Positions 1 to 27,973 of a stretch of DNA of 64,000 bases are shown here, one piece after another. The stretch is taken from positions 1,859,257 through 1,923,256 of the forward strand of contig JAJEKV010000042.1 of NCBI GenBank assembly GCA_021234155.1. Reading direction: 5' to 3'. Positions within the stretch are counted from its first letter, which is position 1; each line of letters opens with the position of its first letter. Source of the stretch: Isoetes taiwanensis (Eukaryota > Streptophyta > Lycopodiopsida > Isoetales > Isoetaceae). The notes under the pieces are model-generated. The model saw nothing but the letters and a program-made list of their open reading frames with translations, searched no databases and had not been told where the DNA came from. The position numbers and the translations under genes are program-made.

Positions 1-1779
1 GATAGGAAGATGGGCTATTCAGTCTTATTCACAGGAGGATTGGTTCACATTCTGCACAAAAATCCACTGGATTTTGTAGATCTACAAAGCCTTGGGCCTA
101 TTGCCAAAGGTTATCTCAATAATGAAGGGTTATATGTTCTTCACAAAGGGTCTTCCTCTTCCTCAAAAGTAGCTGATATGATACATACCCAGTCTTCACT
201 CTCTGCAGCAGTTCCTCAATCTCAAGATTCACTTTGGCATGCACGGTATGGACATGTTGCTCATTCTGCTTTGGTAACAGCATCTAAACATCAAATGGTT
301 AAAGGCTTACCTTTACTTAAAGCTCAAGATCTTGATTGTCATGCTTGCAGACTTGGCAAGCAAGTCCAAGCTCCTTATTCTTCTCAAGCAAAATTTCGAG
401 CTCAAACACCTTTGGAACTTATACACTCAGATATGTGTTATCTTCCTACTGAATCATATGGTGGAAACAGGTATTTTATGGTATTTGTTGATGACTTTAG
501 TAGGTACACATGGGTGTATCCTATTAAGTTTAAGTCTCAAGCTTTCTCTCAATTCTTAACTTTCGGTCATCACGGTGGAGAATGAATTTTCCACAACTAT
601 TAAGAAGCTAAGGACGGATAATGCACGAGAGTATCTTTCTCAAGAATTTGATGATTATCTCAAATCCAAAAGGTATTCATAGGGAACTTATTGTTCCCTA
701 TGCTCATCCTCGAGAATGGTGTTGCGAGCGTAAGAATAGAACACTCATGGACTTAGCAGAAGTATGTTAAAGCACAAGCAGTTACCTCCACGGTTTTGGG
801 CGGAGTCGCATTTTAAGCTGCGACCTATGTTTTGAACAGGGGCTCCTACAAAATCATTGGGTATCAAGACTCCTTTTGAAGCTTTGTATGGTGTAAAACC
901 GGATGTTTCTCATTTCAGGGTATTTGGGTGTTTGGCTTTTGCTCTTGTTCCAAGAGAACTTCTCGAGAAGCATGGTAAACTCTCGGATCGAGCAACAAAA
1001 AGTTATTTTCATTGGCTATCAAGACAACATGAAAGCTTGGAGATGTTATGATCCGGTTACTAAGCGTTTTTCATCAAGAAGTCTCATTTTCGTGGAAGAT
1101 CTTTGTTTACTCAAGTGAGTTTTTCAACCTAATGTGGTTGATTATGACAAGGCTATCTGCAATCGGTTTGATATTGGTCCTACTTCTCAAGCTCTTAATG
1201 ATCATATATCGGGGATTCTTTTCGACTCAACACAAGCTCCTTCTAATATTGTTATTCCTCTTTCGATTTTTCACCATCGGTGGCATTGGATCTATACGAT
1301 CACGTACCTCGGTCACACGATCCATACACCGACTTTCTACCTCTTGATTATCGGTCTCCAATTTACGATACTTCTTCATCCTCAACCGATATGATGTGTA
1401 GAAGAAAATAAATCACTTCGAAGATCTCAAAGGATTGCCAATCTTCCTCCAGTTCATTATTCTTGTAACTATGCTTTAATGGCACAAGTTCTTCAAGACA
1501 ATGATCCTACAACTTATACAGAAGCAGCCAAACATTCTCATTGGGTACAAGCTATGAATGATGAGATTAATATGCTACAAAAGCAACAAACATGGGAATT
1601 GGTACCTAAACCTCTCAATCAGAATATTATTGGTGCTAAGTGGGTTTTTCGTACCAAGTATCATTCAGATGGCACACTCTTAAAGCACAAGGCACGTTTG
1701 GTAGCCAAAGGTTATACTCAACAGGAAGGGTTTGATTTCAATGAAGTGTTTGCACCAGTGGTTCGATTGGATACATTAA
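1..1779 (+). pseudogene. Copia A, left part of pol (GAG-pre-integrase, integrase, start of reverse transcriptase)
   Basis: This is the polyprotein of a Ty1/Copia retrotransposon that enters from the left edge, so its 5' LTR and gag are not visible. The stretch 10-585 reads a GAG-pre-integrase zinc domain (LWHARYGHV with a downstream CHACRLGKQ) and the start of the integrase core (IHSDMCYLP, FVDDFSRYTW). A frameshift near 575 moves the frame. The continuing core is still legible to about 760 (RTDNAREYLSQEF, NGVAERKNRT) but carries further shifts. 857-1118 holds the integrase C-terminal part (FEALYGVKPDVSHFRVFGC). 1479-1775 is the first part of reverse transcriptase (GAKWVFRTK, KARLVAKGYTQ, FAPVVRLDT). 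The frame stops at TTAA 1776-1779, where element B is inserted, and resumes unchanged at 27001. The several frameshifts show that it is inactive. Confidence 0.9.
1776..1779. repeat. TTAA target-site duplication, left copy, of element B
   Basis: TTAA directly precedes the left inverted repeat of B, and a second TTAA directly follows the right one (27001-27004). Removing B and one TTAA joins codons for D-T-L to R-A-V-L in one frame, which is what an intact Copia reverse transcriptase has at this point. Confidence 0.93.
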
Positions 1780-1811
1780 AACCATCATTCAATTAAATTG
1801 GGATTATGTCT
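1780..1811 (+). repeat. Left terminal inverted repeat of element B (32 bp)
   Basis: The repeat begins AACCATCATTCAATT and ends TTATGTCT. It is an exact reverse complement of 26969-27000 over 32 bases, after which the two ends diverge. A palindrome half-site (AATCGCGCC, 1819-1827) follows within ten bases. Confidence 0.95.
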
Positions 1812-2790
1812 ATTCCAAAATCGCGCCGTATAAAGCATTTTATTGACCATTATATTGAATTAACCACACTTTTGCACTGTGTTCATTTTCGGGCTAGGAA
1901 GATGCATTTTATGTTAAAATGCAAAGGCATTCAAATATTCGATGCAAATGACCCATATTATGACAGAATGTTGGCAATAGAAAAAACAGGAAATTGCTTA
2001 TTAATTCGCACATTCACGGACGACAACGAAATCTAAACATTGAAATTGTAATGCTTTACGAATAAATATGACAAGCAAGTTGCTACAAAGCAGAGATTTT
2101 TTCGTGGTTCAAATCGCGTGGTAGCGATTTGCTTGGCATAAATAACGCATTATAATAGAACATAAACTTAAAAACTAATCCGATTCATTATTCGCCGGTA
2201 TTGCTTGGCGGTCCACGAGATCTGTCGATCATGAACAAACCATGCTCTGGATTCCATATAAGATGGATTACAACATCAAAGGGATCAGGATAGAAGCGGG
2301 CCGGGATTCATAGCAAGCGACATCAAGCCATCCACGAAGTTCTATTTCTAGCTCGCGGCACTTGCGAGAGGTCCGCATGGTTCATCTTGCGGGTAATAGA
2401 ATGTGCCATAATAACAAAGTAAGCGGAGGCCGAAGCCGATGGTTTGCCAATTTCATGCATGCCTATTTATACACACCTAAATTATTGACCGGTATATACA
2501 TACAAATTATTACAAGTATAGCAAACCATACACATAATATAAAAAACAATACATTAATACGAGAACCAATAATGCTGATATAAGAACACAATATATATTC
2601 AAAACCTTTAGTGTGTAAAGTATATTTCATATTCAAAATTTTTTTGGAAAGTGTATTTCTGTATACATATATATATCAAAAAGTTCCCTTTCTAGAACGA
2701 TCTTCTCTAGGTCCCTGTCAATTTCCCTGTCCAGATTAAGTTCGGGTATAGTGTTTGTATCTCTTGACCGAATTTTTTTTTTCTGTAGCT
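1812..2790. other. Left interior of element B without a recognisable gene
   Basis: A short open frame at 1806-2036 and another at 2362-2583 match nothing I know and look like chance. A full palindrome of the family described at 5.5 kb lies at 2111-2130 (AATCGCGTGGTAGCGATT core). From about 2450 the sequence becomes AT-rich. The minus-strand HAD gene ends near 2790. Confidence 0.5.
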
Positions 2791-3359
2791 ATTTAGGTGC
2801 AAGATAACGACAAAGCGAAGCGGGGAAGTCATCTTTGTCAAAATCTTGAGGATGATAGGATGGTGGATTTAGTGATTTGTGACTGATTGAAGCAACACTT
2901 CAAGGCGTCATCATCAACTATAATGATGTCTTCCTTCTCTGAGCAAGTCATCCATCATGTCGCTCAAGCATTTCACAAATATTTTTTTTTACTGTAGGAT
3001 CCTTCGGGTTATTGAATGACTTACATTTGCTCTCGATCCCAAGCGGATGCCCAATCTCTATGTAACTCAGGAACTACTCTCAAAACTTCCTGTATATTTC
3101 TATTCTCCATCGACGACCAAATTGCACAACGAAATAAAGTGAAAGCTTGGTCTAACATCTCCTTCAGATACGGCCGCGGATATACCCATTTCGTACCTGT
3201 CTCAAATGGTTTCTGTGCATACCATGATAAAGGGAATTGTGCTTTAGGTAACGTTTTGCAGAGCACTCCATTCAAATCGAACACCAGAATTTTCGAGGAA
3301 ACTGGATTAGGTCTGTAATAATAAAGCACACACTTGTGAGACAAGGAAAAAGAAAATTG

Positions 3360-3423
3360 AAATCGCGCTTGGCGCGATTTTCAATTCTGTTTGAAGAATT
3401 GAAATCGCGCCTGGCGCGATTTT
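3360..3423. repeat. Two GC-rich palindromes inside an intron of the HAD gene
   Basis: Palindromes at 3360-3380 and 3401-3423 share the core AATCGCGCCTGGCGCGATT (one has TT for CT in the centre). They form a 41-bp direct repeat together with flanking ATTGAAA and TTCTGTTTGAA. Both lie within the 133-bp intron 3313-3445, whose splice sites are clear (GTATGT donor, ATTACAG acceptor on the minus strand). Confidence 0.9.
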
Positions 3424-5503
3424 CATTTCTGTTTGAATAACATACCTTTCTGGTTCCTGTTCAACATCCGCAATGATGAGCTTACTCTCGGCTGTCTTCG
3501 GTCTGCCAGAAGTGTCAGCCACATCACTTAGTGTTTGAACTATGGTTGATACTTCATTACTCTTTATGCTAACCTGACTCGAGCTTTCCGAATCCACTGT
3601 ATCATCTAGGATTTTGTCTTCTTCGTTTGTGTTACCTACATCCACTTCAGTCGGATTTTCCAATGTGATTGGAATGATAGGCACGCTCTCGGCCGCATAG
3701 TTAAGCTGCTGCTTGTCGATATTCTTCTTTATGTGCTCCATCTGCTTTCTCATTTCTTCCCGCTCTGCAGCCAGATCTGCAGGTAATTCGGACTTAGAGC
3801 TGGAAGCTTTATTTTTTGCACTACCTAGCGGACCCCTAGGTGCCACCTCTAGCACTTTCTCGTAAAAAATATCAAGGAAGTCCTTGGCTTGACCATCAGA
3901 GACCACACTTTGGCATTTCCTAGCTAGCTTCAGAGCTTCCCGGCCGACATAACCTCCAACATGAAACTCCCAACACGTAGAGTCTAAAGGGCAGAAGGCT
4001 TCAATCAGAAAACTCGAAAGGGCCAAAGAAAACCCGTACTTATTCAGCCTCCCCTTATGCGCCGTCAGTAGCTCATACTTGATTGGTGAACAAAGGACAG
4101 GGTCGACCCAGTTTTCTTCTTCCTCTTCCTCTTCCTCTTCCTCTTCGTCCTCTATAAGGTCCACATCCACATCTGCAGTCCCTTTCCCTTTGTCTTCGCA
4201 ATTGGATTCGACATAAAAAACATTCTTCAGTAGGGGTTCATCTAGCCGATAGCACTGCCAAGCAATCTTCTCTCCTTCTGGTTTCCCCTTGAGTCTTTCA
4301 TATTCTTTATCATCCATAATGGCTATCATAAGGACTAGCACATGTGAGATCTTACTTTCGGTACTAAGCTCACTATCTTTGTTTTCATCTATCATTACTG
4401 CTTGCCTCATCACTTTAATGCATTCGACATCATTTGCAGCAGCTAGTGCATATGCGTAGGACATGTCGGAGTGGCAAAACTATCCGCGATAGTATAATGC
4501 ATCTCGGTCGTCAAACCTTTGCATGTGTTGAAGAAGGTCTTTGTAATCATCTTGTGTCCATCTCGTTGCCACGGCTATCAAGAATAAATAGAGTGATGTC
4601 GGTTGGCCCTTCACCCACGTCTGGCATGGCACACTTATAACCAGTGGACACCTTATAGAAAAAAGGAGACTCGTCTCTTGCCGTCTTCTTCACCAAAGCA
4701 ACTTTTCTTTTTAGGTCGGGGCCTTAACTTTTCGTGTGAATCCTTAAGAGTTGCCACATTCTTCGCCTTTTCTTTGCTTCACAAAATCTTTTGACCAAAA
4801 TACATATTTCTTAATGTCATCATTAGATCGTTGTACTTTTGCATTAAGCCTATCTCGATAACATGAAGTCTCACGAGAGCCTTTGCGGTTCGCCAATGCG
4901 GCTTTTTCGGGACTTTCATATTTTTATCGATTCGCATGCATCTTGAAAGATGTCATGTGCTTTCTCCGCAGACGTTTTCTTGTAGATAACTTCCTTTTCG
5001 ATGCAACTATCTAGAACGAGAGATTAATTACGCATCATCCAATCCTTGTGCCTTTCTCATTTTACGTGATACCTATATAAAAAATAGGCGTATCTTGCGG
5101 AGGAAACCTGCCATACGAATCTGGCAACTTCTTTTCCGAATAGGTGTCCCAAAATTCGTTCCATTTTTCCCATACCTGGTCAGAAGAAAAAACAATCTTG
5201 CAGACATCCTTTGGCACCGTTTGCTCTTCTGAGCCAGCTTGTGCATCCCCTTTTTTCTTCTTTGATCTAGTGCCCTTGGTCTTGTCCTGTATTATGGTTT
5301 GGCACAGTGTCCTTTCTAGTAATTTGAATTCGGCACTTGTCTTGTCCTTGTCTGGTCGGCACTTGTCTTGCCCTTGTCTGGTCGGCATTGGTTTTCCATA
5401 TTCGATCCATTGGTTACGAGCGTGCCGCAACTGTTCCACATACGGACTGCAAAATATGGGCCGTCAGATAAAAAAAATAGACAGGCCGTGAAAGTGACAA
5501 TAT

Positions 5504-5767
5504 AAAACGCGCCAGGCGCGTTTTCGTTAACCACGGATATACAAGAAACGCGCCTGGCGCGATTTCTTCATGATGAAGAATTCGCGCCAGGCGCGTTTCT
5601 TGTAAATCTGTCAAAACAAATAACAACATAAATCGCGCCAGGCGCGGTTTCGCTAATCACGTATTTACAACAAACGCGCCTGGCGCGATTTCTTCATGTA
5701 TGCCATATGAAGAAATCGCGCGCGGTATTCTTGTAAATCGTGATTAGCTTAAAACGCTGGCCGATTT
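5504..5767. repeat. Cluster of seven GC-rich palindromes inside a second intron of the HAD gene
   Basis: Copies lie at 5504-5524, 5543-5568, 5576-5600, 5630-5650, 5671-5692, 5711-5730 (imperfect) and 5751-5767 (half-decayed). The core is CGCGCC-A/T-GGCGCG with A/T-rich ends, so each is a near-perfect inverted repeat of about 20 bp. All fall between the donor at 5795 (GTATTT) and the acceptor at 5447 (TTTGCAG) of one 349-bp intron. Spacing is irregular, 8-35 bp, with AT-rich sequence between copies. Confidence 0.9.
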
Positions 5768-6954
5768 GGAAAACATATGTGGGAAAATAAAATACCTTTT
5801 GTATAGGAATGTCTTTCCCATGTCATTCATGATGGCCGATTTCGCTAATTCTGCTGCTTTGTTGTTGAGCCACCGAGGAACCGGCAATTTCATTTGAATC
5901 TGATCTATAGAATAAGCGATTTCCAGTTTTTTTGTGCTTGATCGATCAAAACCTTCGCCTCGCCTCCGAGTCTTTGGCCATCTATTATCATGAAGTGAAT
6001 ATCGAGGTTGCCAATTAAATCTTCAAGTTTATTCCATATCAACACCTTCTTCGTCTTCATATCAAAAGGCACCACATCTGCCCGGCATTGCTTTTATGTC
6101 ACGGGTTTTCTATCATCTTTGTTGACTATTTCCATTGCGTCTTTGCTTGTCGTATCTTCTGGCCGACAAACATAGCCTTCGTGGACTGAAAAGCCCGTCG
6201 ACATGGATAGGATCGTGAAGCTAAGGCCCGATGGATACTTGTCGGCATATTTCTTGAGTTTGCTCATGGCCTCTAACTATCTCGCCTTGTCATCATCACT
6301 AGTCATATCACGTAATGCCTAGAGCGTCCCGGTGTTTCCCCGGCTCTAGAACTTGCATCTTCCTTCTCTTTTTAAAGCTTGTAGGTACGGACTAGTGACG
6401 GCCTTGTCTTTGATTGCTCTTCTCACGGTGAGAGACCTTCACATATTTTTTTTGGTGTCAATGGATCACCACGACCAGCCAAATTTGAAGAGGTTATCTG
6501 CGGCCTCATCCGATTCGGCGGAGTCTCTTTAAAGGAACTGCCTTTGCAATAATTTAACTTCTTCAATACTTTTTATTTTTTTTGACCCGCTTCAAGTAAT
6601 ACGGAACAGTATGAATCGTCCCGTTCTTCGCATGTGATCAGAATACCTTGTTTCTTCATTTGATCTGTTTCCTTAACTCTAGACATGAAAATCAGATCTG
6701 TCTTTCCGCTAGTCTTGAAGATCTCCACATACCATTGAGCCCTCGGTAGATCTTCTTACGGACATGGAGGCTCTACGAGCCTTCATTATTCGATCAGTAT
6801 CGTCAATGGTCTAGCGTGTGCCAAATCTGCAACTGATACATCTTCCTCCGTTCTTGGTTTTTTCTGTGCAGATGTCCCTGGACCCTGCGCAGGCTTTGCT
6901 TTTCTTTTCACATTTTTAGAAGATCCTGAAAGTTACAATCATGTGGTGAGTAAT

Positions 6955-7090
6955 GAAATCGCGCCGAGCGCGTTTTGATAGACGCCTTACTTTCAAAAAC
7001 ATAAATTGTACACAGGAAAAGTAGCAGAGACAACCAAAAACAATCATATCAGAGACGCTCTACATTATAAATCGCGCCGAGCGCGTTTTT
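6955..7090. repeat. Two further palindromes in the first intron of the HAD gene
   Basis: AATCGCGCCGAGCGCGTTTT occurs at 6955-6976 and again at 7069-7090. Both are variants of the same palindrome with GA at the centre and both lie in intron 1 (7459-6926). The rest of this intron, 7100-7460, is A-rich on the plus strand and holds no gene. Confidence 0.85.
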
Positions 7091-8455
7091 AAGAGGGGCC
7101 CTACAGACGCTCTATATTATAAGAGACATACTAGGCTACAAAAAAGACTTGTCAAAAGAACTGGAGAATACAGAACAAAAGTATAAACAAACAAGTCTGC
7201 AAGAAACTATAATTAAACGGTCTACATTATACAAAATGGAGAATACAAAACAAAAAAACCAGAGTCTGAGGAGAAGATTATAACAAAAACACACAAAACA
7301 AGGTAGTAAAAGCAGTAGAAATGACACAGAAACAATATAAAAGGTAGAAAATACACAGAGACACGCATACACAGAAAACACAGGTAGAAAAACATCCTAA
7401 AAAACTAACAAAAAAAAGGGACACAGAAATCAATTACAAAACAAAAACAGATCAATTACCTGAGGCGCTTGTTGGATTTGTGCTTTTTCGCTTGTTCAAG
7501 TGACCTCCAGGCTTGGGATTTGTGCTTTGGGCTGTCGCCCACCTCTACCAGCGCCCCGGCCGCGGCCAGATCCTCTAGACGCCATAGAACTGCAATTGCG
7601 GATAATATGAGACTCGTATATGTATGCGTTCATAATCTAGGCCGTCAGATTTACAACCGTAAATTCAAATTCGCGTCCTTTTAAATTTATACCGCCTTAA
7701 TTAACCGCCCGTCCCGCTCATTTACAAATTTAAATTGTGTTTTTCTTTTTAGTGCAATTTCAAGATAACAATTAATTATTAATTTCAAGAAACGCATATG
7801 TGGCAATCTACTACCACCTAATCGCCACCTACTATCGAGGCCAAGATCATTCCTACTATCGAGGCCCAAGAACAATCGACTATCGAGGCCTAAGATCCAT
7901 CTACAACGCCCATTCGATCGAGCCGCCTTCAATCCCATTCGATGTCTATTTGAACTATGGTGAGTGTGATTCCATTCGAATGCATTCTCTTGTTCTCTAT
8001 TTTTAGGTCCTCTATTTTTTCCAATGCATTCTGGTTCTTTATCAGTGTCGGAGAAGAATGCTATCTTTTAACAGCAAACTTGAAGCGCCGAGTAGGCTTA
8101 TGTAAAATCGAAGATCTGAATCCAAGTTCTATGTGTCATGGTGTTCCTCTTGGAAACTTGGTTTACGTAAGATTTCCATTATAAACCGCAATTATGAAGA
8201 TGAGGCTCTTCCAAGAAGACATCCGGTGGCGATCTGGTTGGTGGCGTGGGCACATTTGTAGCATGGCCAAAAAGAACGTCTGAAAAAGGTAATTCAAAAA
8301 AAAAAATGAATATATCATAACATATGCATGATGTTGTGAATTTTGAATTCTTTGATGTTCTTTAGCCAGTCATATCAGCCCCATGAAACTACACATTAAT
8401 GAAAATATGTAGTTTCTTGGGGTTGGTCATCTTATTTGGAGGGCATCAAAGGATT

Positions 8456-9030
8456 CAATGTTTTCGACATTGCATATAAAAAACATAATAAACTAATGAC
8501 ATAAAAGTATAGTGCAAAATTGCGCCGGTAGCGAAGTTTGTATTCATATTCAAAAACGTGTATGTACATTTCTTCTTACGCAAAAAATGCGCCAGCGAAT
8601 TCTTTCTATCTCTACAATATGTCACATAGGCCCACTTCATCGCCCAATACCGCAAAAAGTCCCACGAACCACTCGATATGACGGGATCCTCATCTTCCCT
8701 GCGAATGTCGAAGTCTCCAAACCCAGTGTTGTATCGATCCTTGATACTATAAATCAAATCCCTGATTACTTATTTGTTGGCATGAGCCTTACTAAGAGCA
8801 TGAGGAGCCGCATATGTCCAGAGATGCGATGGAAGTGTTCCCATGGCCCCTGATACAGACTGTCTAATGGATTCTCCAACTCTCTTTGAACGTTTTGAAC
8901 AGCACAATCAAGTAATATCTTGTCATGGGGTCGAGTTGATGGTCGTCCAGGGGAAGTGTATTTGAACTAGAACCAGCCAGTGTATTTGAACTAGGATCAG
9001 CCAGTGTCCATGCATAAGGAAAATCCATGG
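8456..9030 (-). CDS. Unidentified, broken reading frame in element B
   Basis: On the minus strand a frame opens with MDFPYAWTLADPSSNTL (from about 9030), shifts near 8870, and continues as YSIKDRYNTGFGDFDIRRE and SGSWDFLRYWAMKWAYVTY down to 8456. Residue composition looks like a real protein, but I do not recognise a family. It lies upstream of exon 1 of the HAD gene on the same strand and could be an upstream exon of it or a separate gene. Palindromes of the B family flank and interrupt it (8516-8538). The frameshift means this copy is probably not functional. Confidence 0.35.
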
Positions 9031-9285
9031 CACTAGAACGAGAGAAATTAAGTAATTAGCAAATGATATATTACTCTCCCCATAAAACGATTCTCGAACA
9101 TATATAATTCAAAAGCGCCAGCGGTAGCGTTTGTTTTGTTTTTTTCACGGATCTATTTCACTCGGGCGCGATTTGTATAGAACCGTATGAAATAGAAAAG
9201 CCAAACTAAAACGCTGGCGCTGGCGCTTTGATTAACCTAGTGGAAAATCGGAACCCAAAAATAGAAATGCGCCAAGCGCGATTTC
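8516..9285. repeat. Diverged palindromes of the B family, upstream group
   Basis: Copies at 8516-8538, 9111-9133, 9207-9229 and 9265-9285 keep GCGCC/GGCGC cores (for example ATGCGCCAAGCGCGATTTC) but are less regular than those in the introns. Single half-sites occur at about 8587 and 9165. Confidence 0.7.
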
Positions 9286-9299
9286 TCCCATTCTAACAT

Positions 9300-9680
9300 A
9301 TTATTCTAACAGAATGCATAATGCAGAATTCATTGTTTTAGTTCATTATTTAGAGCAGATAGAGGAAGAGCTAGTGAAATAGAATAAGAGCGATATATCT
9401 GTGAGAATCATATAAGCAAGATCATAGAGCAGATAGATCATACAGCAGATAGATCATAGATCATAGAGCAGATAGATCATAGATCATAGATCATAGATCA
9501 TAGATCGTAGATCATAGAGCAAGATCATAGAGCAGATAGATCATAGATCATTATTTACTTCATTATTTTAGATCATTAATTAGAACAGATAGAGGAAGAG
9601 CTAGTGAAATAGAATAAGAGCAGATCATATAGGCAAGATCACAGAACAAGATCATAGAGCAGGATCTATATATGAAGGTG
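9300..9680. repeat. Tandem AGATCATAG-type repeats within a direct duplication
   Basis: Many imperfect copies of AGATCATAG and GAGCAGATAGATCATA fill 9410-9560. A longer unit (attt, then AGA-CAGATAGAGGAAGAGC, then TAGTGAAATAGAATAAGAG) occurs at about 9335-9395 and again at 9565-9625. No coding signal is seen. Confidence 0.75.
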
Positions 9681-9779
9681 GTAGGGCAGTTTAGGACTGA
9701 TGCATGTAAAAGTAAATAACATGCTTTATGTAAAATAACTACTTTATGTAAATAACAGGAAATACTAACCTATTTGTGT

Positions 9780-10410
9780 TCTGTACCCGAGAATTGAGTC
9801 TTTGCCTTTGAGCCGAAACAAAAAAATCGAAAAACAAAGTTGATTTGATTCGAGAAGCCAATAGCAGATGATTTGAGCCTTAAGAAGCCGAGAAAAAGCA
9901 ATAGCAGCTAATTTGGAAACCGAGAAGCCGAGAAGCTTTAACACAAAAAACAAAAAACCACAAAACTTTGTTATTCAAAGCCAGAGAGATTGTAGAGAGC
10001 CGAAAAACCAAAAAAGCCAGAGACATTGTATAGAGCCTACAAACCTTTGAGCCGAAAACACCTTTGAGCCGAAAACCCTAAAGCAGATGATTGTAGAAGC
10101 CGAAAAGCTCGAAAAGCCGAGTTTAAAGCCTATAGAAGCCGAGTTTAAAGCAGATAGAAGCCGAAAAGCCGAGAAGCAGATAGAAGTCGAGATTGAAGCA
10201 GATTGAAGCCTAGATTGAAGCCTAGATTGAAGCCGAGAAGCACCTAGATTGCATGCAGAGATTGAAGCGCCGAGATTGCATGCAGAAGCGCCTAGAAGCG
10301 CCTGGAATGCCTGGAATTGGAAGCGGAAGGAAGCGCCTGGAATTAGCCTGAAATTCGAAAAGTTCGAAAGTGAGAGAAAGCAGTTCGAAAACGAATGCTA
10401 ACTTCAAATA
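9780..10410. repeat. Low-complexity array of GAAGCCGAGAAGC-type units
   Basis: The plus strand repeats variants of AAGCCGAGAAG, AAGCCGAAAAG and TTGAAGCCTAGA dozens of times. Two minus-strand open frames here (9765-9953 and 10222-10407) follow the repeat rather than a protein family, so I do not call them genes. Confidence 0.7.
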
Positions 10411-10489
10411 ATAACTGCCTTAAAAATTTCGTACCGCGCAATCATCACTGCCGCGAAAATTTATTACATAAATTTTTTGTTGTAAGGAC

Positions 10490-10960
10490 CGTCACTTTAA
10501 AAGTTTAAAAGTTATGAGTTAATAGTTAATAGTTAAGTTATAAGTTATAAGTTAATAGTTTAAAAGTTATAAGTTAGTAGTTAAGTTAGTGACCTTAAAA
10601 CTAACCTTAAAACTTAGTTCTAACCTTAAAACTTTTAACCTACAATAACTTTAAAAGTTTAAAAGTTATGAGTTAATAGTTAAGTTAGTTGTTAATAGTT
10701 ATAAGTTAATAGTTAAGTTATAAGTTATAAGTTAATAGTTTAAAAGTTATAAGTTAGTAGTTAAGTTAGTGACCTTAAAACTAACCTTAAAACTTAGTTC
10801 TAACCTTAAAACTTTTAACCTACAATAACTTTCCAACCTTAAAATTTCTAACCTATAATAACCTATAATAAACTTCTTAACCTTAAAACTGCTAACCTAT
10901 AATTAATAACCTTAAAAGTTGTTGCTAAGGTTATTATAGGATAAAAGTTTAGAAGGTTAT
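10490..10960. repeat. AT-rich direct repeats of TTAAAAGTTATAAGTTA type
   Basis: A block of about 150 bp is present twice (about 10490-10650 and 10650-10840) and is itself built of TTAATAGTTAAGTTA and CTTAAAACT units. The end, to 10960, contains inverted versions (AACCTTAAAACT against AGTTTTAAGG-like). No gene is seen up to the acceptor at 11131. Confidence 0.7.
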
Positions 10961-13485: not shown

Positions 13486-13529
13486 CCTACCCAACTTTTT
13501 GAAGTTATAACACCTTACCAGCACCTAAA

Positions 13530-15440: not shown

Positions 15441-15444
15441 TTAA

Positions 15445-16480: not shown

Positions 16481-19027
16481 TCCATTTCTCATTGAAGAAC
16501 TTCGGTGCAAGTGGGCTCATCCTCATCTACTAAGCTATCTGCATAAAGACTACTCTTGTGCTCCAAAACTCGATCTAAAAGATGATCATGAACATCCTTT
16601 GGAAGTTTGTATATGTTTTCACTTACAGGCACCATATCAAAGCAACACGACATGACCAAGTGGCTGTATGCATTGCACTCTGGTGCATCTTCAAGCAATT
16701 CAAATTCACTACCTCCTAAAAACTTATAATACTTACCTGAGAGGACCACTTCTCTTCTAGCAAATTTAGCACCCCATGCATCTTTAAAGGCCCTCTCTAC
16801 AATGTGTTTAGGCTTAGTGCATTTGATGATGTAGAAGTCTCACTGTTCCTTGTTGTTGGCCTCGGATGGTACCGCAAAATTATCCCCAACATCAACTACA
16901 TCGTAAAACCCATTCATGATCCCCTTCATAGATAGGACCAGTAATGTTTCCACTCGTCTTCAAGACTGGAATTAGTTGAGAATAAACCCAAGATCCTATT
17001 CTCGCTTTTGTTTATGCACTTCCCAAACTTTCACGCCCAACAAGAATTACGTATAAATCGAAATCCATATGAGCAACCCGAGTAGGGTCATTGGAATGCA
17101 TGTGTCGATACAATGCAACTTTCTCGAACCCGTTAATGTCTTACAATCATGACTGCCACTTCTATCAACCTCATTGATAGCTATCTCCCAAAAAATATCG
17201 CAAAAGGAATCATGTAAAATAACATGCAATGCAAACAACATGTAAAACCCTGAACTCATTGTGTACCCGCAAGGATGATCTCCTTCATTGTCACAATCTA
17301 ACTTTAAAATGTACTCACGCAAAACACAACCGCATCATGTGCATTCCTTAGTGGTACTTGAATTCCTCTTCAACATCTCATGTGTGAGGGCTCTTTTATT
17401 ACAGCACCAGCACCATCATGCTCACCGCAAGGATTGATTTACGAATTTTAAAGAAATGCCAATTAAAAAGAACCAATAGACTAAAATAAAAGTAATTACC
17501 TTTGCCATGATATGATGCAAAGAAATTCCAGTGTATTGGTTTTCCGGTGCTTTTGAAAGAACACGCCTTAGGAAGTAGAACATCCTTGCTCCTTTAAATT
17601 GATGGGAACATCCATCGGACAAATTGGAACAACTCTGCTAAATTGGAACAACAAATTGGAACCAACAAATTGGTATCAACAAATTGGAACAACTCAAGCA
17701 TCGGTGTCGTCTTGTAAACAAGCTTGTTGATTGGGTTTGGGAGCTTCCTACAAAAAAAGCAAAAACATATATCAAGATTACCACCTTTTTGGATTTAACA
17801 TTTCAAGTTACTTGTAATACCTTCTTCTTAGCCGGATCTTCTTTTTCCGACCTGAATTCTCATCAGCAGTCTTACAAAGACCACCTTTCTTACGTCACGA
17901 ATTCTCAGCTAGTCTTTGCCAAGACCACCTTTCTTCCGACCCAAAGATTTGTTCTTCCTCGCAGTCTTCTCAGCAGACTCCTTTCTTCTTAACAAGTTTT
18001 TCCTTCTCAAGAACCTTATTAAGATGCTCTTCAACTATGCTCATGTCCCATTTTAACTATTGCTATAAGAATGGCAATTGGCAATACCAAACTCTATTAA
18101 CATTATTTCATCATTAGAAAGCGAGAATGTTACCTTGTCCTCCTCATAAACCTGTTATGTTCAAAAGAAGAGTTTGAGCGAAAAAAAGAATATCTCATTT
18201 AAGAATAACAATTTGAATTACCTTATCAAATGTCTTCCAATCTACTTGATGGTTCAACTTGTAATCTCTTTCTTTTTGGACAAGTTGGCACTTTTTTTTT
18301 CCACAAGCCTTGCATTTAAGCGGCAGACAATTATGTTGATGCCACTCTTCCGATTCATCCTTAGGACATACCAAAGATCTCCAAAGCTCGGAGGTTGAAG
18401 CATATGTAGCTTTAGATGCATTGCGGGTTGGTCCTATACCACATACATCACAATTGCATGTGCAATTTGGACCATGGAGGTCCTGATCTAATCTTACTTT
18501 GTTTATGGCCTGTCTCACAAAGTCAACTCTCAAATGGTAGATACAAAGACAAGTCTCTCTATCTTTTACCTTCGACATATGGAGGCTTTAGAGCATGGAA
18601 TGTCAGTAAATGATATTTGAAAGTATGGATATTGCCTTTCAAATCGTTGGAAGAAAAACTTGCTGCGAGAAAACAAACAACAACATATCAACAACCTTAA
18701 GTTGAAAATCTTAAACCTTAACAATTTGAAAACAAATTGCTTTAAAATTACCTGTGTCTCTTCAAGAAAGTGTAGTGCATGCAATATCTTCTTTCCAGAA
18801 GTTGCTTTTATCTTGATGACATATTTCTTACATGGGGAAACTCTTGTATTGTGTCTCCAAAAATCCACCACTAGTTTTCTCTCGTCATAAGAGAGTTTGT
18901 CACATCTAATCTTATTTTTGAACATGGACCATGGACCCTCACCAAGTTCAGCATCTACTCTTCTTCTTACAGCAGTTGTGACAATCTTTCTGTTCAGGCA
19001 TAGAGTTCTGGAGAAAGCTGATTTGTT

Positions 19028-19032
19028 AATAT
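19028..19032. repeat. AATAT target-site duplication, left copy, of Copia D
   Basis: AATAT directly before the 5' LTR is repeated directly after the 3' LTR (24575-24579). On the minus strand the join reads ...AVNTNI|NKSAF... without a stop, so the host exon of element C is restored exactly. Confidence 0.95.
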
Positions 19033-19674
19033 TGTTGAAAATGTAAGTCATGTCATATTATAAGGAATTTAGAAAATTGTCATCTTATATTCATGAGAAG
19101 CAGTGGCAGTGAATATATTGTAGCTACAAAAACAACCTATGAGAAGCAGTGGCAGTAGGTTGTAAAGTCAAGAACAGTTGAAGCATATAAGTGCTTTATA
19201 CATATAAGTGCTTTATGTGCTTTATGTGCTTTCCTAAAGCAGGTATGTGGGATAAATCGAAAGTAGCATTTTTCCAGCCAAGCCTGTGGAATATAGTTCA
19301 ATAGACAACAGCCTCAGATTGGAAAGCATGAATGATGCCTTAACCGCCGGACAGTTCTATTATAATGTGAAGCAGAGGCTTAAAGAATCATTCGGGTCCA
19401 AGGATGGTTTGATCCGTCTCATATACGATCGAATGGAGGCAGTCAACGTTGCTACAGGAATTCAGTCAATCCCTCTGCTACAGTGATCGTTTATTGATTT
19501 GAGCAAGGAATTATTGACCATAATGTGGCTTCCTTGCTGGTGTGAAAGGTTTGATTGAAATGCTAATGGTGTTGTGAAGCATAAATAAGATTTGATAAGC
19601 CTGAATTATCATAAAAGTGAAGTTGAATGACATCTTTGCTAGGATAAGATTGAACGTGTTGTCTATTTCTAACA
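19033..19674 (+). repeat. 5' LTR of Copia D
   Basis: 642 bp, TG...CA ends. A 17-bp unit (CATATAAGTGCTTTATA type) occurs once fewer than in the 3' LTR, next to a TGCTTTATGTGCTTTATG run. The open frame at 19286-19486 is LTR sequence, repeated in the 3' LTR, and not a gene. Confidence 0.95.
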
Positions 19675-19675
19675 G

Positions 19676-19688
19676 TGGTATCAGAGCC
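19676..19688 (+). other. Primer-binding site of Copia D
   Basis: TGGTATCAGAGCC starts two bases after the 5' LTR. It is complementary to the 3' end of plant initiator methionine tRNA, the usual Copia primer. Confidence 0.92.
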
Positions 19689-19708
19689 AATAAATCCAGG
19701 AAAGCAAG

Positions 19709-22700
19709 ATGTCTACTCGATTTGGAGCTAATCTCTTAAACTCCATAGAGGTCTTCAAAGGGGAAACTGGTTTCCAGATTTGGAAGCAAGGCATTCAGGA
19801 GGTGTTAGAATTTGAAAAATTATGGTACTTGATTGATCCTAATGTGGTTAATACAGCAGTCGTAGTATCTGGAGGAGAAGAATCAAGTACTTCAACCTCT
19901 GTTGTAGGTGGTGGAGCTAGAACAGCTGCAAGTGGTGAAGGTGGAACTAATGCAGCAAGAAGAGTTACTTCAGTGGCTAGCGTGGATGAGAAGGCAAGAA
20001 TAATGGAAGCTCAATCCATAATATGCCAAAAGGTGGGGACAGCTATCAAGCTAAAACTCGAGGTAAAATCCCCGCAGAAATGTGGAAATTTATGTTAGAT
20101 AATTATGAGCAAAAGTCTTCCTCTCAAATAGATGTATTGGAAAAACAATTGAGAAAATTAAAATTGTATGAGAAAGACAACATTACTGAATTTCGGAAAA
20201 ATTTGAATCAATAATTCTGACTTTAGAGGGAGCAGGAGTTGTGTTAAATGAGGACTATCAACTTCTAGCTATTTCTAGAGCAGTCTCCCATAATGCACAG
20301 TTAACTACTTTGTTAAGAAATGTGGCTAAATCAAAGGAACATGCAATTAGAATGATCAGGACAGAATTTGAGCAGACCAAAGGAGATGATGATGATGATT
20401 CAGAGGCCATGTTTATCAAACAGAAAAAAGGCAAGAAGGTCTTTAGTAAAAAACAAATTGGCCCATGCTTTAACTGTGATGCTTATGGTCACCTTAAAAT
20501 AAATTGCCCTAAACTTGGAAAAGAAGTTATTTGTTATAATTGTGAGGGTAAAGGTCACATAGCAACCAACCGCCAAGTCCAAAAAGAGGAAAAGGGAAGA
20601 AATTTGAAGGTAAAGGATCCAAGGCTAAGCCTAGCCTAAATATTGCTCGAGAAACAAGCCAAGAGGAAGATGAGCAGGATGAAGACATTGAGGTAAATGT
20701 GTCTAAGGCTTGTTCTAAGATTAATACAAAATTTGACACTGATGCTCTTATCTTAGATTCAGGAGCTGAGAGATCCGTGACAGGAAGCTCAGAAATACTA
20801 AAAAAATGCCAGAGAAAAGAAGGAGGACATGTACAGTTTGGAAATGGGGAATTAAGAAGAATTGAGAGTGCTGGAGTTCTGGAGTTGTTTGACCTAGAGG
20901 GCAAAGCTGTAAAGCTAAAAAATGTGTTGTGCATACCAGGATTGATAAGAAATCTTATTTCAATATGCCAGTTAGTTGATCTTGACTATAAAGTGGTGTT
21001 TGAAAAACTTCATTGTAATATTTTTCTTGGTAATAAAGTATCAATTTGCTGACTTATCCATCTCTGAAAAATTGGCATGAAAGATTATGTCATGTTAATC
21101 CTGCTACAATTGAGGTATTAAACAAGGAAGGATTCCTTAATATCAGCACATCTCAATCTGAAAAACAAGTATGCATGGGATGTATGCTTGGCAAACACAA
21201 CAGATTACCTTTTAAGAAAAAAGGTGCAAGAGCAAAGGGTATTTTGGATTTGGTACATACGGATTTGTGTGGACCACTTAATGTTGTTAGTCTGAGTGGG
21301 AAAAGATACTTTATGACTCTAATAGATGATTTCAGTAGAAAAACTAAAGTGTATTGCATTAAAACTAAAGATGCAGCTTTTGAAAAGTTTAAAGAATTTG
21401 TTAATGAGATGGAGACTGAAACAGGAAGAAGGATTAAATGTTTGAGGTCTGACAGAGGAGGTGAGTTCCTATCAGGAGAATTTAAGAGGTTTTGCAAGAA
21501 TAAAGGCATTAAAAGGCAACTAACTTGTAGTCATTCCCCACAACAGAATGGTGTAGCTGAAAGGAAGAACAGAACAATTTTAAATGCTGTTAGGAGCATG
21601 TTAAAATCAGCAGGATTACCAAATTTCTTATGGGAAGAGGCAGTTCAAACTGCTGTGACTATTCAAAACATGTTGCCATCTGCTAGTACACATGGTGGAA
21701 TTCCTGATATGCTTTGGTCAGGAAGGAAACCAAATTATGAAAATTTGAGAGTGTATGGATGCTTAGCATTTGTTCATATACCAAAGGAAAACAGAAAAAA
21801 ATTAGATGATCGGGCTCTAATTACATATCTAGTAGGATATGATAATCAGTCCAAGGCTTATAGGTTATATGATCCTAAAGCAAGAAGGGTAATTATTAGT
21901 CGAGATGTTTCCTTTGATGAGGGACAAGTTTACAAAGTATTATCTAGACCTATAAGGCTGCCTGAAAATGTTAAGTTGACTGAACAGAATGCTAAGGCTG
22001 TATCTACTAACAAAGTAAATGAGATTGATACAGATGATGATCTTTGAGAGGGACCGAGGCTGAAACACAAACAGAAATTCAGGAAGAAATTGAAGACTCT
22101 TTAGGGGAAGGTGAAGAAGAATCAATAGATACAAGTCAGGTTGAAAGGTCTGTACCTGTAATTCAACAACAACCTCAAGTGAAAAAGAAAAGAATGACAG
22201 AAGTGCAAAAACTTCAAGCAGGCTTGAAATTTGAGACTGAGATGCATGGTCGTGATGAAGCTGGAAGGAGTAAGAGATTGCAAGTTGAACAGGAGCATGA
22301 GGTAAACAATATTTTTGAAATTTTAATGCATCTAAACCCAGAAGTGCCAAAAACCTTAGATGATGTTCTAGTTTCAAATGACAAAGAGCAGTGGCTAAAT
22401 GCTATGAAAGAGGAAATGGATTCTTTTGTCGACCTGACACCTTTGAAACAAATGAACACTCCGGAGGGTAAGAATATAGTAGGCAATAAATGGATTTTCA
22501 GAATCAAAACTGGAGCAGATGGTAAATCACCTAAATATAAAGCCAGGCTGGTTGCACAGGGATTCTCACAGAAAAAAGGCCAAGATTTTGATGAAACATT
22601 TTCTCCTTTAGTAAAAATGAACAGTGTCAGAATGCTACTGGCTTTGGCAAATGCATGGAATCTAGAAGTGCATCACATGGATGTAAAAACCGCTTTCTTA

Positions 22701-23892
22701 AATGCAAAATTAGATGAGGAAATTTTCATGAAACAAGCACCGGGGATTTGAGCAAGGGGAAGATAAGGTTTGGAAATTGAAAAAGGGCAGTTTATGGGCT
22801 AAGACAATCTCCTAGAGAATGGTACAAATGCATGGATTCTTATCTTATTGAACAAGGATTTGTTAAGTTTTTGAATGATGGGAATTTGTATAAATTTGAA
22901 TGTCAAGACGGTTGGTGCATTATTGCTTTATATGTTGATGACAACATTATGGTGGCAAAAGGGAAAAAATGTTTATTGATGTGCAAAAGGTTGTTGAAAA
23001 GCAGATTTGAAATGTCAGACCTTGGAGAACTTACAAAGTTTTTAGGGATTGAGGTGTCAAGAAATAGAGATAAAGGTACCATCATTTTAACTCAAAAAGA
23101 GCAGATCAGAGGTATGCTTGAAAAATTTAAAATGAAAGAATGCAACATTAGTAAAACTCCTGCTGCACCAGGATGTAAGCTTTCTCTTGACATGTGTCCT
23201 AAGAATGATGAAGAAAGGAAAATCATGGAGAAAATTCCATATAGATCTTTAACAGGATGCCTAGCCTATGTTGCTAATTGCACAAGGCCGTAAACATGCT
23301 CAGTAGATACAACAATGATCCAGGGAAGGATCATTGGATTGCTGCAAAACGTGTTCTGAGATATTTGAAAGGCACTATTGATATGGGAATTGCATACAAT
23401 TCAAAAAACTTAATATTGGTGCATTTTGTGATGCCGACCGGGCGGGAGATTTAGATGCAAGAAAATCAACATCGGGATACCTTATGATGCTTGGAGGAGG
23501 TCTTGTAGCTTGGAAGTGCAAAAACAATCATCTATAGCATTGTTCACTGCGGAAGGTGAGTATGCCTCAGCCACATTATGTGCAAAAAAGAACTAATATG
23601 GGAAAGGAGGTTAATTTTGGAACTTGGAATTGAGCACCAAACTCTAGTGAGATGCTATGTGACAAGACAAAAGCCGCATAGCCATGACCGTAAATCCGTA
23701 ATGCATGAAAGGTCGAAGCATATAGAATTAGAAATGCATTTCATTAGGGATGCAGTATGCAAAGGATTGATCCAAGTTAATTATATTAGTACAGATAAAC
23801 AGGTAGCAGATATTTTGACAAAGGTTCTGGCAGAGAAAAGGTTCACTGAGCTCAGAAAGCAAATCATGCATACAGATTCAGATATAACATAA
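19709..23892 (+). pseudogene. gag-pol of Copia D
   Basis: gag starts MSTRFGANLL at 19709. Two zinc knuckles follow: CFNCDAYGHLKINCP is complete, while CYNCEGKGHIATNR has lost the last cysteine. The protease motif is LDSGAE (about 20755). Integrase shows the WHERLCH / CMGCMLG zinc domain, HTDLCGP, LIDDFSRK, LRSDRGGEF and NGVAERKNR (21046-22047). Reverse transcriptase has KWIFRIK, YVDDNIMVAK and FLGIEVSRN; RNase H has a CDADRAGD-like motif and STSGY near 23440-23480. The frame changes at about 20080, 20220, 20640, 21050, 22040, 22740 and 23290, so no single polyprotein can be made. Many frame breaks beside nearly identical LTRs are noteworthy (see findings). Confidence 0.93.
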
Positions 23893-23906
23893 GGAGATAT
23901 GACATG

Positions 23907-23915
23907 AAGGGGAAG
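23907..23915 (+). other. Polypurine tract of Copia D
   Basis: AAGGGGAAG lies immediately before the TG of the 3' LTR, where second-strand priming is expected. Confidence 0.9.
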
Positions 23916-24574
23916 TGTTGAAAATGTAAGTCATGTTATATTATAAGGAATTTAGAAAATTGTCATCTTATATTCATGAGAAGCAGTGGCAGTGAATATA
24001 TTGTAGCTACAAAAACAACCTATGAGAAGCAGTGGCAGTAGGTTGTAAAGTCAAGAACAGTTGAAGCATATAAGTGCTTTATACATATAAGTGCTTTATA
24101 CATATAAGTGCTTTATGTGCTTTATGTGCTTTCCTAAAGCAGGTATGTGGGATAAATCGAAAGTAGCAGTTTTCCAGCCAAGCCTGTGGGATATAGTTCA
24201 ATAGACAACAGCCTCAGATTGGAAAGCATGAATGATGCCTTAACCGTCGGACAGTTCTATTATAATGTGAAGCAGAGCCTTAAAGAATCATTCGGGTCCA
24301 AGGATGGTTTGATCCGTCTCATATACGATCGAATGGAGGCAGTCAACGTTGCTACAGGAATTCAGTCAATCCCTCTGCTACAGTGATCGTTTATTGATTT
24401 GAGCAAGGAATTATTGACCATAATGTGGCTTCCTTGCTGGTGTGAAAGGTTTGATTGAAATGCTAATGGTGTTGTGAAGCATAAATAAGATTTGATAAGC
24501 CTGAATTATCATAAAAGTGAAGTTGAATGACATCTTTGCTAGGATAAGATTGAACGTGTTGTCTATTTCTAACA
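23916..24574 (+). repeat. 3' LTR of Copia D
   Basis: 659 bp. It differs from the 5' LTR by one additional 17-bp unit near 24090 and about five substitutions (for example GTTATAT for GTCATAT, GGGATATAG for GGAATATAG, CCGTCGG for CCGCCGG). Confidence 0.95.
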
Positions 24575-26073
24575 AATATTGGTATTGACAGCATAAACCA
24601 TGGCAGCATTTCTTGCCCTCTTAATATCTGTTTTCTTCTCATTCTTATGATCTGCAAAAGAGTTCTTTAAATTCTCCACAATTTTCTTCATTACAGATTC
24701 ATCCTTGGAGTTAGGAACAACAAGTTCAGGTAGCCACTTTGCAGCAGACTTAATTATCTCTTTCCTATCCCTACAACTTGCATTACCAAGAACCTTTTTC
24801 ACCTTCACTGCAACCTTTTTTGTTAGCATTCTCTTCTTCCATGTGCTTAGATCACCTTGGAGCAATGCTTCTTCATCTGCTACAATTTCCCTTTCCCTCT
24901 TAAGCTCTCTCTCTTTTCTCCTTAACTCAGCTCTATATCTTCTAAAAGCATGACAATCTGCTAGAAAAAAAGAATCTGAAGTGAAAAAAGTCAAAGAAAC
25001 CTTCAAATCATGCAAACCTTGCTTACCTTGAAAATGAGGTTGATCATGACATTGGGTTCCTTGTGTATTATCTTGGTGACACCCTTCATAACAAGAAAGA
25101 CAACAAAGATTAGCAAAAGAAAAGTTCAAAGTAAATTCAAGGAATCCAATTCCTTGAAATCGACTTAAAGAAGGTTGCACACCTTCTTCACTTTGGACAT
25201 CTTGAGTTCCCTGTTGGCGCCACCCTTCAGACTCTTGGAAATCACCTTCATGGTAAGAAGGTTGCAAATCTTCATGAAATGCAGACTCTTCATTGTCTCC
25301 ATAAGGTTCGGGATTGTGACAGTAAACATTTTCTAGAATTAAAGCAAACATCAACAAATAAGGAAAGAAATCAACAACAAATATGTAAGTTCAAAATTAC
25401 CTGAATCTATAGGAATTGATGTAGCCATATGTAACTGATCTTGTCCAGCTTCTTTCAGTTCAAAGCAAACTCATAGATTAATATGCATTTCAGCATACAT
25501 GAAAATGAAATGCATCATGATCCTCAATTACCATGGTAAATATCTAGCACAAATTCGCTTGCATTCGGCCTGAAACTTGTTGGCTCTGTTCTTGAATCTG
25601 CACTTGCGGATTGCTGACAAATTGCATCAGCAATTCGGGAACAACTGCCAAAAAAAATTTCAGTCTGACTCTGGAAAACTTGGAGGCTAGATAGCAGTTT
25701 TGCAACATCAAAATTAACTTGATTCTTGCACACAGATGCACGAAAAGCTTCTCTCCATTCCGCCATAGACAGAATTGGAGAAATCTAGCAGCAAAGAAAT
25801 TCATGGTATTTATACTCTGAAGAACTTCAAAACCGCCAAATTTACTTTCAAATTGCTTGCCGAACATGGCGTCATCACCTCGCACCAGCAGCACGGATCA
25901 ACAACCCGCACGGATTGCTGAAGTGGCAATTTCCTGGGCTTCGGATCGACCAACAGAATTTGGCGCCCAGGAGGAAATGGCGGGTGAAGTGCTATGACGA
26001 GCGAAAAAAATTTCACTTGACGGGTCCAGCACCCGACCAGCACAAGCGTCGCCCACATAAAAAGTTGAGTACC

Positions 26074-26077
26074 TTAA
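26074..26077. repeat. TTAA target-site duplication, right copy, of element C
   Basis: TTAA follows the right end of C (...AAAGTTGAGTACC). It starts the resumed DUF7869-like frame of element B. Confidence 0.9.
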
Positions 26078-26748
26078 TAAAAAACACACCCTCAAGCATT
26101 GGCAAACTAATTCAGATGAGACTAATCGTGCATTGATAGATTATTGGAAGAAGGTGATCAACTTGTTGGATGAGGTAGACACATCCTCAGAAGAGCTGAA
26201 AGAAGGGTGGTTCCCTAAAAGTAAGTGGAAAACATTAGCTGGTGCTGACGAAGATGATGGTACCATTAGTAGCATTGTGAAGGCATATGCTCCTCCTCAA
26301 TCTGATAAACATTATGTTGGTCCTAAGAAGGATAGGCCAAAATATTTAGGCATGGATTGTTATGAACCTTCTACTGACGTGGAGTGCCACCAATTTGTAG
26401 TAGTAAAACCAAAGAGATCTAGAGACCTATCCAAAGTGTGGTTGGGATACACTATCTCGGATATTTGCAAAGAAGAAGGTGATGTTAACTTCAATAAGGT
26501 GCTTGGCGTGGAATGGTGGTGTCCAATTACATCGGTTGAGTAATGTCACCGATAAAGAAAGATATTCAGATTGTTGGACAAAGAGGTGGAGGAGAAATCC
26601 AAGTGATCCTGATCTTTGGCTAGACATTGAAACCGTATTGTACTCATGGACTCCAAAAACTATTCTTGGTAAAACAGCGAGAGTTACAATACCTCAGGAT
26701 GTAAAGAATAAGGTTCTCATATCCTTGGGGATGCTAGTGGAAAAATGA
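26078..26748 (+). pseudogene. DUF7869-like gene of element B, part 2 (C-terminal domain)
   Basis: Continues the frame broken at 13485: KKHTLKHWQTNSDETNRALI, then DYWKKVINLLDE, PKYLGMDCYEPSTDVECH, FVVVKPKRSRDLSKVWLGY and GVEWWCPITSV. After a frameshift near 26530 it reads RYSDCWTKRW, VLYSWTPKTILGKTARVTIP and ends at a stop near 26748. The layout FVVV-K ... VWLGY ... V-WW-P resembles the small beta-barrel (BAH- or chromo-like) C-terminal domain of chromatin-binding proteins; that resemblance is an inference from pattern only. The 3' flank to the right inverted repeat (26749-26968) is AT-rich. Confidence 0.7.
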
Positions 26749-26895
26749 AAAACAGTTACTATGTATCTTTTCTACAGTTAATAAAAGTTGTGTACTACTT
26801 GAGTTCCATGATATATGATTTTGTAATTTGAAGTTAAGGTGTGAATTTATATTCCCGTGTGTGATTATATGTTAATGTCTATTCTAGTCTAAGGG

Positions 26896-26944
26896 CAACA
26901 AAGTTATTAAAAAAGTGAATTTAACAAAGTTACTAAAAAAGTGC
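26896..26944. repeat. Short direct repeat near the right end of element B
   Basis: AACAAAGTTA-TAAAAAAGTG occurs twice in tandem, 25-100 bp inside the right inverted repeat, with one base different. It may be a subterminal repeat; it is unrelated to the GC-rich palindromes on the left. Confidence 0.6.
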
Positions 26945-26968
26945 AATATAAAATTTATCCCAAAATTA

Positions 26969-27000
26969 AGACATAATCCCAATTTAATTGAATGATGGTT
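26969..27000 (-). repeat. Right terminal inverted repeat of element B
   Basis: Exact reverse complement of 1780-1811, 32 of 32 bases, followed directly by TTAA 27001-27004. Confidence 0.95.
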
Positions 27001-27973
27001 TTAAGGGCAGTCTTGGCTCTAGCAGCTCATAAAGGTTGGCCTATTTATCAACTTGATTTCAAGTCTGCATTTCTAAATGGGGATTTACAAGAAGAACTCT
27101 ATATACAGCAGCCACCTGGATTTAAGGATAAGCTTCATCCTGATTTTGTTTGTAAACTAAAGAAGAGTTTGTATGGATTAAAACAGGCACCTCGCTGTTG
27201 GCATCTGAAGATTAATTCTTTTCTTCTTTCTATGGGTTATCAAAGGTCTCGTGCAGATCCGAATCTTTACTATAAATTTGAAGGTGGCTCTGTCTCTATT
27301 ATTCTCTTGTATGTTGATGACACTATCATAACAGGGGATGCTGCACAACTTATTTCTCACACCAAAGAGGTCCTTACTCAACAATTTGAAGTCACTGATT
27401 TGGGTCTTATGCATTACTGTCTTGGCCTTGAAGTTTGGCAGACTCCTAATGGTCTTCATATTACTCAACAGAAGTATATTTCAGAACTTCTGGACAGATT
27501 TCATATGACAGATTGCAAGCCTTCACTTTTACCATGTGACATTGGTCAAAAGCTTACTCTTGAATCTGATCATGAAGATGCTGATCCTACCTTGTATAGG
27601 CAGCTTGTTGGAGCCTTATTATACTTGACTCATTCTCGTCCAGATATTGTTTATGCAGTTGGAGTTCTTACTCGATTCATGCAACATCCCAAGTATCAAG
27701 GATTACAAAGGTCATCTCCAAATTAAACATATGGATATCAAACTCTGCTTTGTACGTGAACAACTTGACAATGGTTCTCTTTCTCTTCTCTATTGTTCCA
27801 CTCATGATCAAGCAGTCGATGGCTTCACTAAAGCTTTGGCGGGAAAACATTTTCAGAAGATGAAGGAAATATTGCACATTCTTCCTCGGTATCATCTCAG
27901 GGGGATGAAGTCTTTTCTTTCAGTTTGTTTTTTAGTAATAAGTCTGCATAGCTCTTGCTCTCAGTTGTGCTAG
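27001..27973 (+). pseudogene. Copia A, right part of pol (reverse transcriptase, RNase H tail)
   Basis: The frame resumes with TTA AGG GCA (L-R-A) and continues without a break to 27722: [27 protein letters not shown], the catalytic [12 protein letters not shown], and [13 protein letters not shown]. After [16 protein letters not shown] most of RNase H is missing: a deletion near 27700 joins KYQG to [19 protein letters not shown] in another frame, then GFTKALAGKHFQKM near the C-terminus. The intact reverse-transcriptase core contrasts with the decayed integrase on the left. Confidence 0.93.

Follow-up and report, generated by a model that had tools for sequence, protein, structure and literature searches.

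In a 64-kb window of the Isoetes taiwanensis genome (the whole stretch analysed: 64,000 nucleotides, positions 1,859,257 to 1,923,256 of contig JAJEKV010000042.1), we found that a 25.2-kb interval, described in an initial annotation as one TTAA-flanked DNA transposon, is a three-level nest and not one unit. The outer transposon, element A, lies within a Copia retrotransposon; a second transposon, element B, is nested in A; and a further retrotransposon, Copia C, lies inside B (Table 1). The insertions occurred in that order: A into its Copia host, B into A and Copia C into B. We consider it probable that A is a cut-and-paste transposon that duplicates 4 bp of its target, with a protein bearing the Pfam domain DUF7869 as transposase and a HAD-domain protein as an accessory, and that B and Copia C joined it later.

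Element A is certainly mobile, because it has exact terminal inverted repeats (TIRs), its removal restores a Copia reading frame, a related empty site exists, and its end recurs in the genome. The TIRs match as reverse complements at 32/32 positions, the match ending after base 32, and TTAA adjoins each on its outer side, all as initially described. When the flanks were joined with a single TTAA, the residues RLDT and LRAVL met in one open frame across the junction, and the Pfam reverse transcriptase domain RVT_2 ran unbroken over the joined flanks (residues 42-282, profile 2-241 of 244, 5.4e-76). The related empty site lies in another Copia copy (C996:13480595-13480874), which is 97.9% identical over 280 bases, gapless, and contains one TTAA. 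A is a large repeat family: the 1.66-Gb assembly (1,110 contigs) contains 1,370 exact matches to the 32-bp end, 685 on each strand, versus 0 for a reversed control. Further copies of the end and empty sites were the checks proposed in the initial annotation, and both were found, so that its view of a real mobile unit holds. Pair spacings were taken from 100 of the 1,370 ends. Among these, 23 neighbouring plus/minus pairs lie no more than 30 kb apart; as read by eye, 15 pairs measure 12,038-12,849 bp, the most frequent spacing. The longer pairs presumably carry inserts, as does the copy on contig C1030, which is 21.5 kb long.

The TTAA at the borders is the target-site duplication (TSD) of this one copy and not a target rule of A. 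It precedes 24 of the 1,370 exact ends (1.8%). The TSD was exactly 4 bp in 7/7 copies with both ends: TTAA in the window, and ATAT, AAAT, GACA, CTTC, CTTT and TATA in the six other pairs. The 4 bases ahead of 23 left ends, the window included, have no consensus and a G+C content of 32%. TTAA had been put forward as a property of the element's borders; most borders lie outside TTAA, which is the finding that the initial annotation itself had named as contrary to its claim. Its view that the element does not match piggyBac is supported in that A is not a TTAA-bound piggyBac; the family duplicates varied 4-bp targets. The flanks of one copy can thus mislead the classification of an element. The exact TIRs and the flanking TTAA of the window copy would also suit one undivided 25-kb transposon of an undescribed, TTAA-specific type, but the target sites listed above and the independence of B leave that reading with almost no credence.

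The independence of B was apparent from other copies of A. When these were aligned, window position 13467 adjoined 26096, with a single TCAA at the join. A probe across B's place found B missing from 16/16 distinct other A copies, of which 14 were 93-98% identical to it and two were more diverged (82% and 84%); of the loci probed, the window copy alone had B at this place. B is a second repeat family, and its borders recur elsewhere in the genome. Searches with 152 bases of its left end and 152 of its right end (the queries began at 13469 and stopped at 26091) returned 94 and 134 first-look candidates, respectively, of which 40 per end were scored. The left search gave 41 match rows: 39 started at the predicted first base, one started a base later and one was a fragment; on the right, the predicted last base was the end of 39 of 40 rows, the remaining row being one base short. 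The first base of B was set at 13468 by copy alignments and duplications. Ten other B copies were paired, nine spanning 7.2-7.5 kb and one 8.0 kb. Like A, B duplicates 4 bp: as read by eye, this length fits 11/11 copies (ATGA, AAAA, TTAA, TATA, ATTA, TACC, CAAT, GTAG, TTGT, CCTT and, in the window, TCAA), with 5 bp also possible in 3/11. A 5-bp TSD for B, suspected from the window copy, was dropped, since 4 bp alone fits all 11 copies. What stands of the 25-kb DNA transposon is therefore the transposon, and not its unity, since 12.6 kb of it is B with a Copia inside.

Copia C carries a 5-bp TSD of its own. Its pair of long terminal repeats (LTRs) differs over 659 columns by 5 mismatches and one 17-base gap, with no one-base indel, and two other B copies lack Copia C. 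The Copia elements are of plant type, in keeping with a land-plant host. Separately, on contig C779 a B copy (locus L081) starts 28 bases from an apparent A end, 21 bases of which are visible, a further instance of B near A.

The cargo named in the initial annotation, a DUF7869-like gene and an FCP1-like HAD gene, was recovered in Pfam scans of 20 of the 44 open reading frames (ORFs) listed for the window and of some frames from other A copies; both domains scored well above their cut-offs (26 bits for DUF7869 and 21.8 bits for NIF, the Pfam entry matched by the HAD gene) in the C1030 copy. The DUF7869 match reached 20.1 bits in the window, below the cut-off, because the gene is frameshifted there. 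It rose to 120.4 bits (E 9.1e-35) in C1030 and to 59.6 bits in part of the C920 copy. DUF7869 is a domain of unknown function in Pfam and is named in no paper of the literature searched. The protein has three aspartate (Asp) motifs, IHDKMDQ, LDNCAGxNK and GHTHEDxDA. Five relatives were found among 941 metagenomic candidates, and the motifs recur in them, with IHDKMDQ common to 7/7 covering rows, LDN to 3/3 and GHTHED.DA to 2/2. A search of viral contigs gave 0 relatives of this protein and 0 of the transposase of B, and a PDB sequence search with the DUF7869 protein gave no match. The DUF7869 protein is most likely the transposase of A, of the DDD type and of a sort that is little known.

The second gene of A lies on the reverse strand and has a C-terminal NIF/FCP1-like HAD domain. 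The NIF match was above the cut-off in the window (2.6e-8) and covered nearly the whole profile (1-158 of 160) in C1030, with 62.6 bits (4.5e-17). FCP1-type phosphatases have the motif DxDxT/V. Because the corresponding motif in A is DLNGVL, catalysis by its HAD protein appears doubtful. The HAD region is present in 4/4 A copies read that far left (the window, C1030, C1059 and C155); such a partner is unusual, and to call it constant extrapolates from four copies to 1,370 ends. None of 7,995 candidates scored in a protein search matched the HAD gene, and in a literature search for NIF with transposons the term NIF was absent from the matches listed. The left part of A, and only that part, also contains AATCGCGCC/GGCGCGATT repeats in or near the HAD gene, of which the GCGCCnGGCGC palindromes in Table 1 are parts, and AAAATCGCGCC sits directly inside the left TIR. 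The palindromes, AAAATCGCGCC or both may be protein-binding sites.

Element B has a decayed transposase-like gene and a second gene for which no Pfam match above cut-off was found. The transposase matches a family of five proteins (P0006-P0010, among 6,664 candidates) with the motifs VDFAENY, WSDG..QFK and GHGKGEHDGAGAVIKR, the third motif including GHGKGEHDGAG. Compared with two other B copies, the window copy lacks about 320 bases near the first Asp. A structure model of P0006, of low confidence (predicted local distance difference test [pLDDT] 41.5), has a strand and helix order resembling the RNase-H core. Seven of its first 8 PDB matches in Foldseek are RNase-H-like (RNase H1, E 0.008; PIWI/Argonaute, 0.01-0.06; RuvC, 0.08), and the further matches mix unrelated folds with more RNase-H-like ones. 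The model suggests that the transposase of B is probably RNase-H-like. A PDB sequence search with B's protein gave 13 weak matches to Spindlin-1 (E 0.34-0.54). Separately, an Rfam search gave 0 matches at the gathering score.

Table 1. Features of the nested elements, in window positions.
Feature	Position	Strand	Remarks
Left TSD of A, TTAA	1776..1779		TSD comparison of paired copies
Element A as it stands, including nested B	1780..27000		25,221 bp, net 12,593 bp; exact TIRs, 4-bp TSDs, B-free copies
Left 32-bp TIR of A	1780..1811	+	Exact inverted-repeat match
Reverse gene of A with C-terminal NIF/FCP1-like HAD domain	~2600..8800	-	Pfam NIF; exons not established
Open pieces of HAD gene region	3021-3380, 3307-4479, 5062-5463	-	Not certain to be all one gene
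Six GCGCCnGGCGC palindromes	3407..5686		None elsewhere in the 64-kb window
DUF7869 gene, 5' part	11132..13467	+	Frameshifted in window copy; contains the three conserved Asp motifs
TSD of B in the window, TCAA	13464-13467 and 26092-26095		TSD comparison, 11 B copies
Element B, including Copia C	13468..26091		GGGTG...CACCC, imperfect TIR of ~33 bp; same borders in repeat copies
B second gene	~14084..15450 (read by eye)	+	ORF in copy L092
B transposase-like gene, decayed	~16489..25766	-	SDGC..QFKG, GEHDGAGAVIK; interrupted by Copia C
TSD of Copia C, AATAT (5 bp)	19028-19032 and 24575-24579		
Copia C (LTR retrotransposon in B)	19033..24574	+	LTRs 19033-19674 and 23916-24574
DUF7869 gene, 3' part	26092..26748	+	Separated by B; open frames continue through in L036 and L095
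Right 32-bp TIR of A	26969..27000	-	Exact inverted-repeat match
Right TSD of A, TTAA	27001..27004		TSD comparison of paired copies

The copies of A were also compared with one another. Pooled over 13 copies relative to the window, the ratio of nonsynonymous to synonymous differences per site (pN/pS) was 0.50 in the DUF7869 exon and 0.40 in the 3' part, with single copies at 0.27-0.93; in two stretches of the HAD gene, pooled over 3 copies, it was 0.43 and 0.40. As evidence of selection on the genes of A these values are suggestive only, because the skew among codon positions is weak (in the DUF7869 exon, 94/73/89). The DUF7869 exon (1,121 columns) has 41 indel columns common to at least 2 of 14 copies, and the 3' part (690 columns) has 33. 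Broken A copies have therefore multiplied, and movement in trans is the simplest way for them to have done so. Only 5 substitutions in two DUF7869 segments (consensus, 1,719 bases) are private to the window copy, which is therefore young. Over positions 11566-12631, 13 A copies differ from the window by 184 indel events and 256 substitutions; indels here almost equal substitutions in number, while the Copia LTR pair has 5 substitutions and a single 17-base gap. Assembly error as the sole cause of the frameshifts was ruled out by the Copia LTR pair, which has no one-base indel, and by the shared indels; it is a possible cause of private indels.

Several results weigh against the favoured reading of A and B. 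The ORF scan for its gene covered 13 copies (the window, C1030, C1059, C1093, C1076, C155, C1079, C985, C974, C920, C908 and two on C907), and a single open frame over the whole gene, for which introns are not established, was found in 0/13. The structure model of the protein is poor (pLDDT 46), and Foldseek returned noise with it (best E, 0.71), which leaves an RNase-H fold for A's protein unsupported. The P0006 model is poor as well and gave no Foldseek match at E <= 0.001, and hhalign detected no link between the DUF7869 and B transposase alignments, both of which are thin. Besides the weak codon-position skew, a third stretch of the HAD region had a pooled pN/pS of 0.98, and single copies reached 0.92-0.93 in the DUF7869 gene.

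The lack of a one-frame gene in the scanned copies, the common indels that make amplification of broken copies and movement in trans likely, and the fact that the fold of DUF7869 is not established would all accord with a different history, in which DUF7869 is not the transposase and A, non-autonomous itself, has captured its two genes and is mobilised in trans by another element with recognition of the same ends. We regard this as rather unlikely, given that the protein retains three Asp motifs common with distant relatives, that no other transposase-like match appeared in the A frames scanned (a part of all frames), and that the differences between copies lean silent.

A, whose family duplicates 4 bp of almost any target, inserted into an older Copia, in its reverse-transcriptase gene. 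If the DUF7869 protein is the transposase, it would bind the 32-bp ends and carry out cutting and joining via its three aspartates, and the HAD protein would travel with A as an accessory or regulator. B later entered the DUF7869 gene of A, and Copia C then entered B. Movement by cut-and-paste is what the TIRs, the TSDs and the class of the element suggest. The presence of DUF7869 in a transposon with 1,370 exact ends gives an uncharacterised family a testable function, that of a transposase core. A bolder proposal would make DUF7869 a lineage of DDD transposases outside all described superfamilies, Sola included, with the HAD protein as an obligatory partner managing host transcription or repair at insertion; we think this improbable, though it merits mention.

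Two further observations concern the ends of A. At locus L030 (993-1621), a second A-type TIR in the same orientation is separated from the right end by about 600 bp and has diverged neighbouring sequence, which points to another subfamily that shares the 32-bp end. On contig C907, two right ends (L045:2083 and L047:1106) lie about 18.8 kb apart and have an identical 30-bp outer flank, as if this stretch had been locally duplicated.

Among known systems, the plant transposons MuDR and En/Spm have two genes, a transposase gene and a second, non-transposase gene. A resembles them in pairing a likely transposase gene with a second non-transposase gene, but differs in duplication length, ends and proteins. 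Polinton/Maverick elements make a 6-bp duplication and carry genes for polymerase B, integrase and capsid; the TSD of A is 4 bp in 7/7 pairs, and a scan of 20 of the 44 window ORFs found none of these genes. In the same ORFs and some frames of other copies, no piggyBac-type transposase domain was found.

For Kolobok and piggyBac, the available excerpts of one source (PMC9587614) give TTAA-specific duplication as the rule, with termini of the form RR...YY in Kolobok and without strong target preference in KolobokP. A has 4-bp TSDs, and its AA...TT termini fit RR...YY; its likeness to piggyBac lies in the TTAA flanks of the window copy only. That A is a Kolobok or piggyBac relaxed from a strict choice of TTAA is nonetheless very unlikely. 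We set both aside because of the TTAA rule in these excerpts (PMC9587614), which A, with TTAA at 24 of 1,370 ends, does not follow. No Pfam match of either type appeared in the frames scanned, and the C/DxxH motif is missing between the second and third Asp motifs of the protein, as read by eye in copy L036.

The closest likeness we considered is to Sola, a superfamily of three very divergent groups; Sola2 has termini GRG, which the GGG of B would fit. A and B both have 4-bp TSDs (7/7 and 11/11 copies, respectively), and the DUF7869 protein of A has three Asp motifs, a likeness of motif only, with a low-confidence fold. As far as the excerpted description extends, Sola elements encode a DDD transposase, have 4-bp TSDs and TIRs of 11-1124 bp, a range that includes the exact 32-bp TIR of A, and are mostly 2-9 kb long, some exceeding 15 kb (PMC10741241). 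The same excerpts place Sola in moss and call it uncommon in flowering plants (PMC10741241); partial views of other sources record it in Capsicum (PMC9033089) and, among ferns, substantially more in Azolla than in Salvinia (PMC6786969). The initial proposal of an undescribed element type could still hold, but it is weakened because 4-bp TSDs and a DDD transposase are what the published account of Sola, as excerpted, describes (PMC10741241). A differs from Sola in that the copies read carry, as a second gene, one for a protein with a NIF/HAD domain, and in that a single genome has 1,370 of its exact ends. Compared by description and not by Sola sequences, both A and B appear to fit the published account, and A may be kin to the Sola superfamily.

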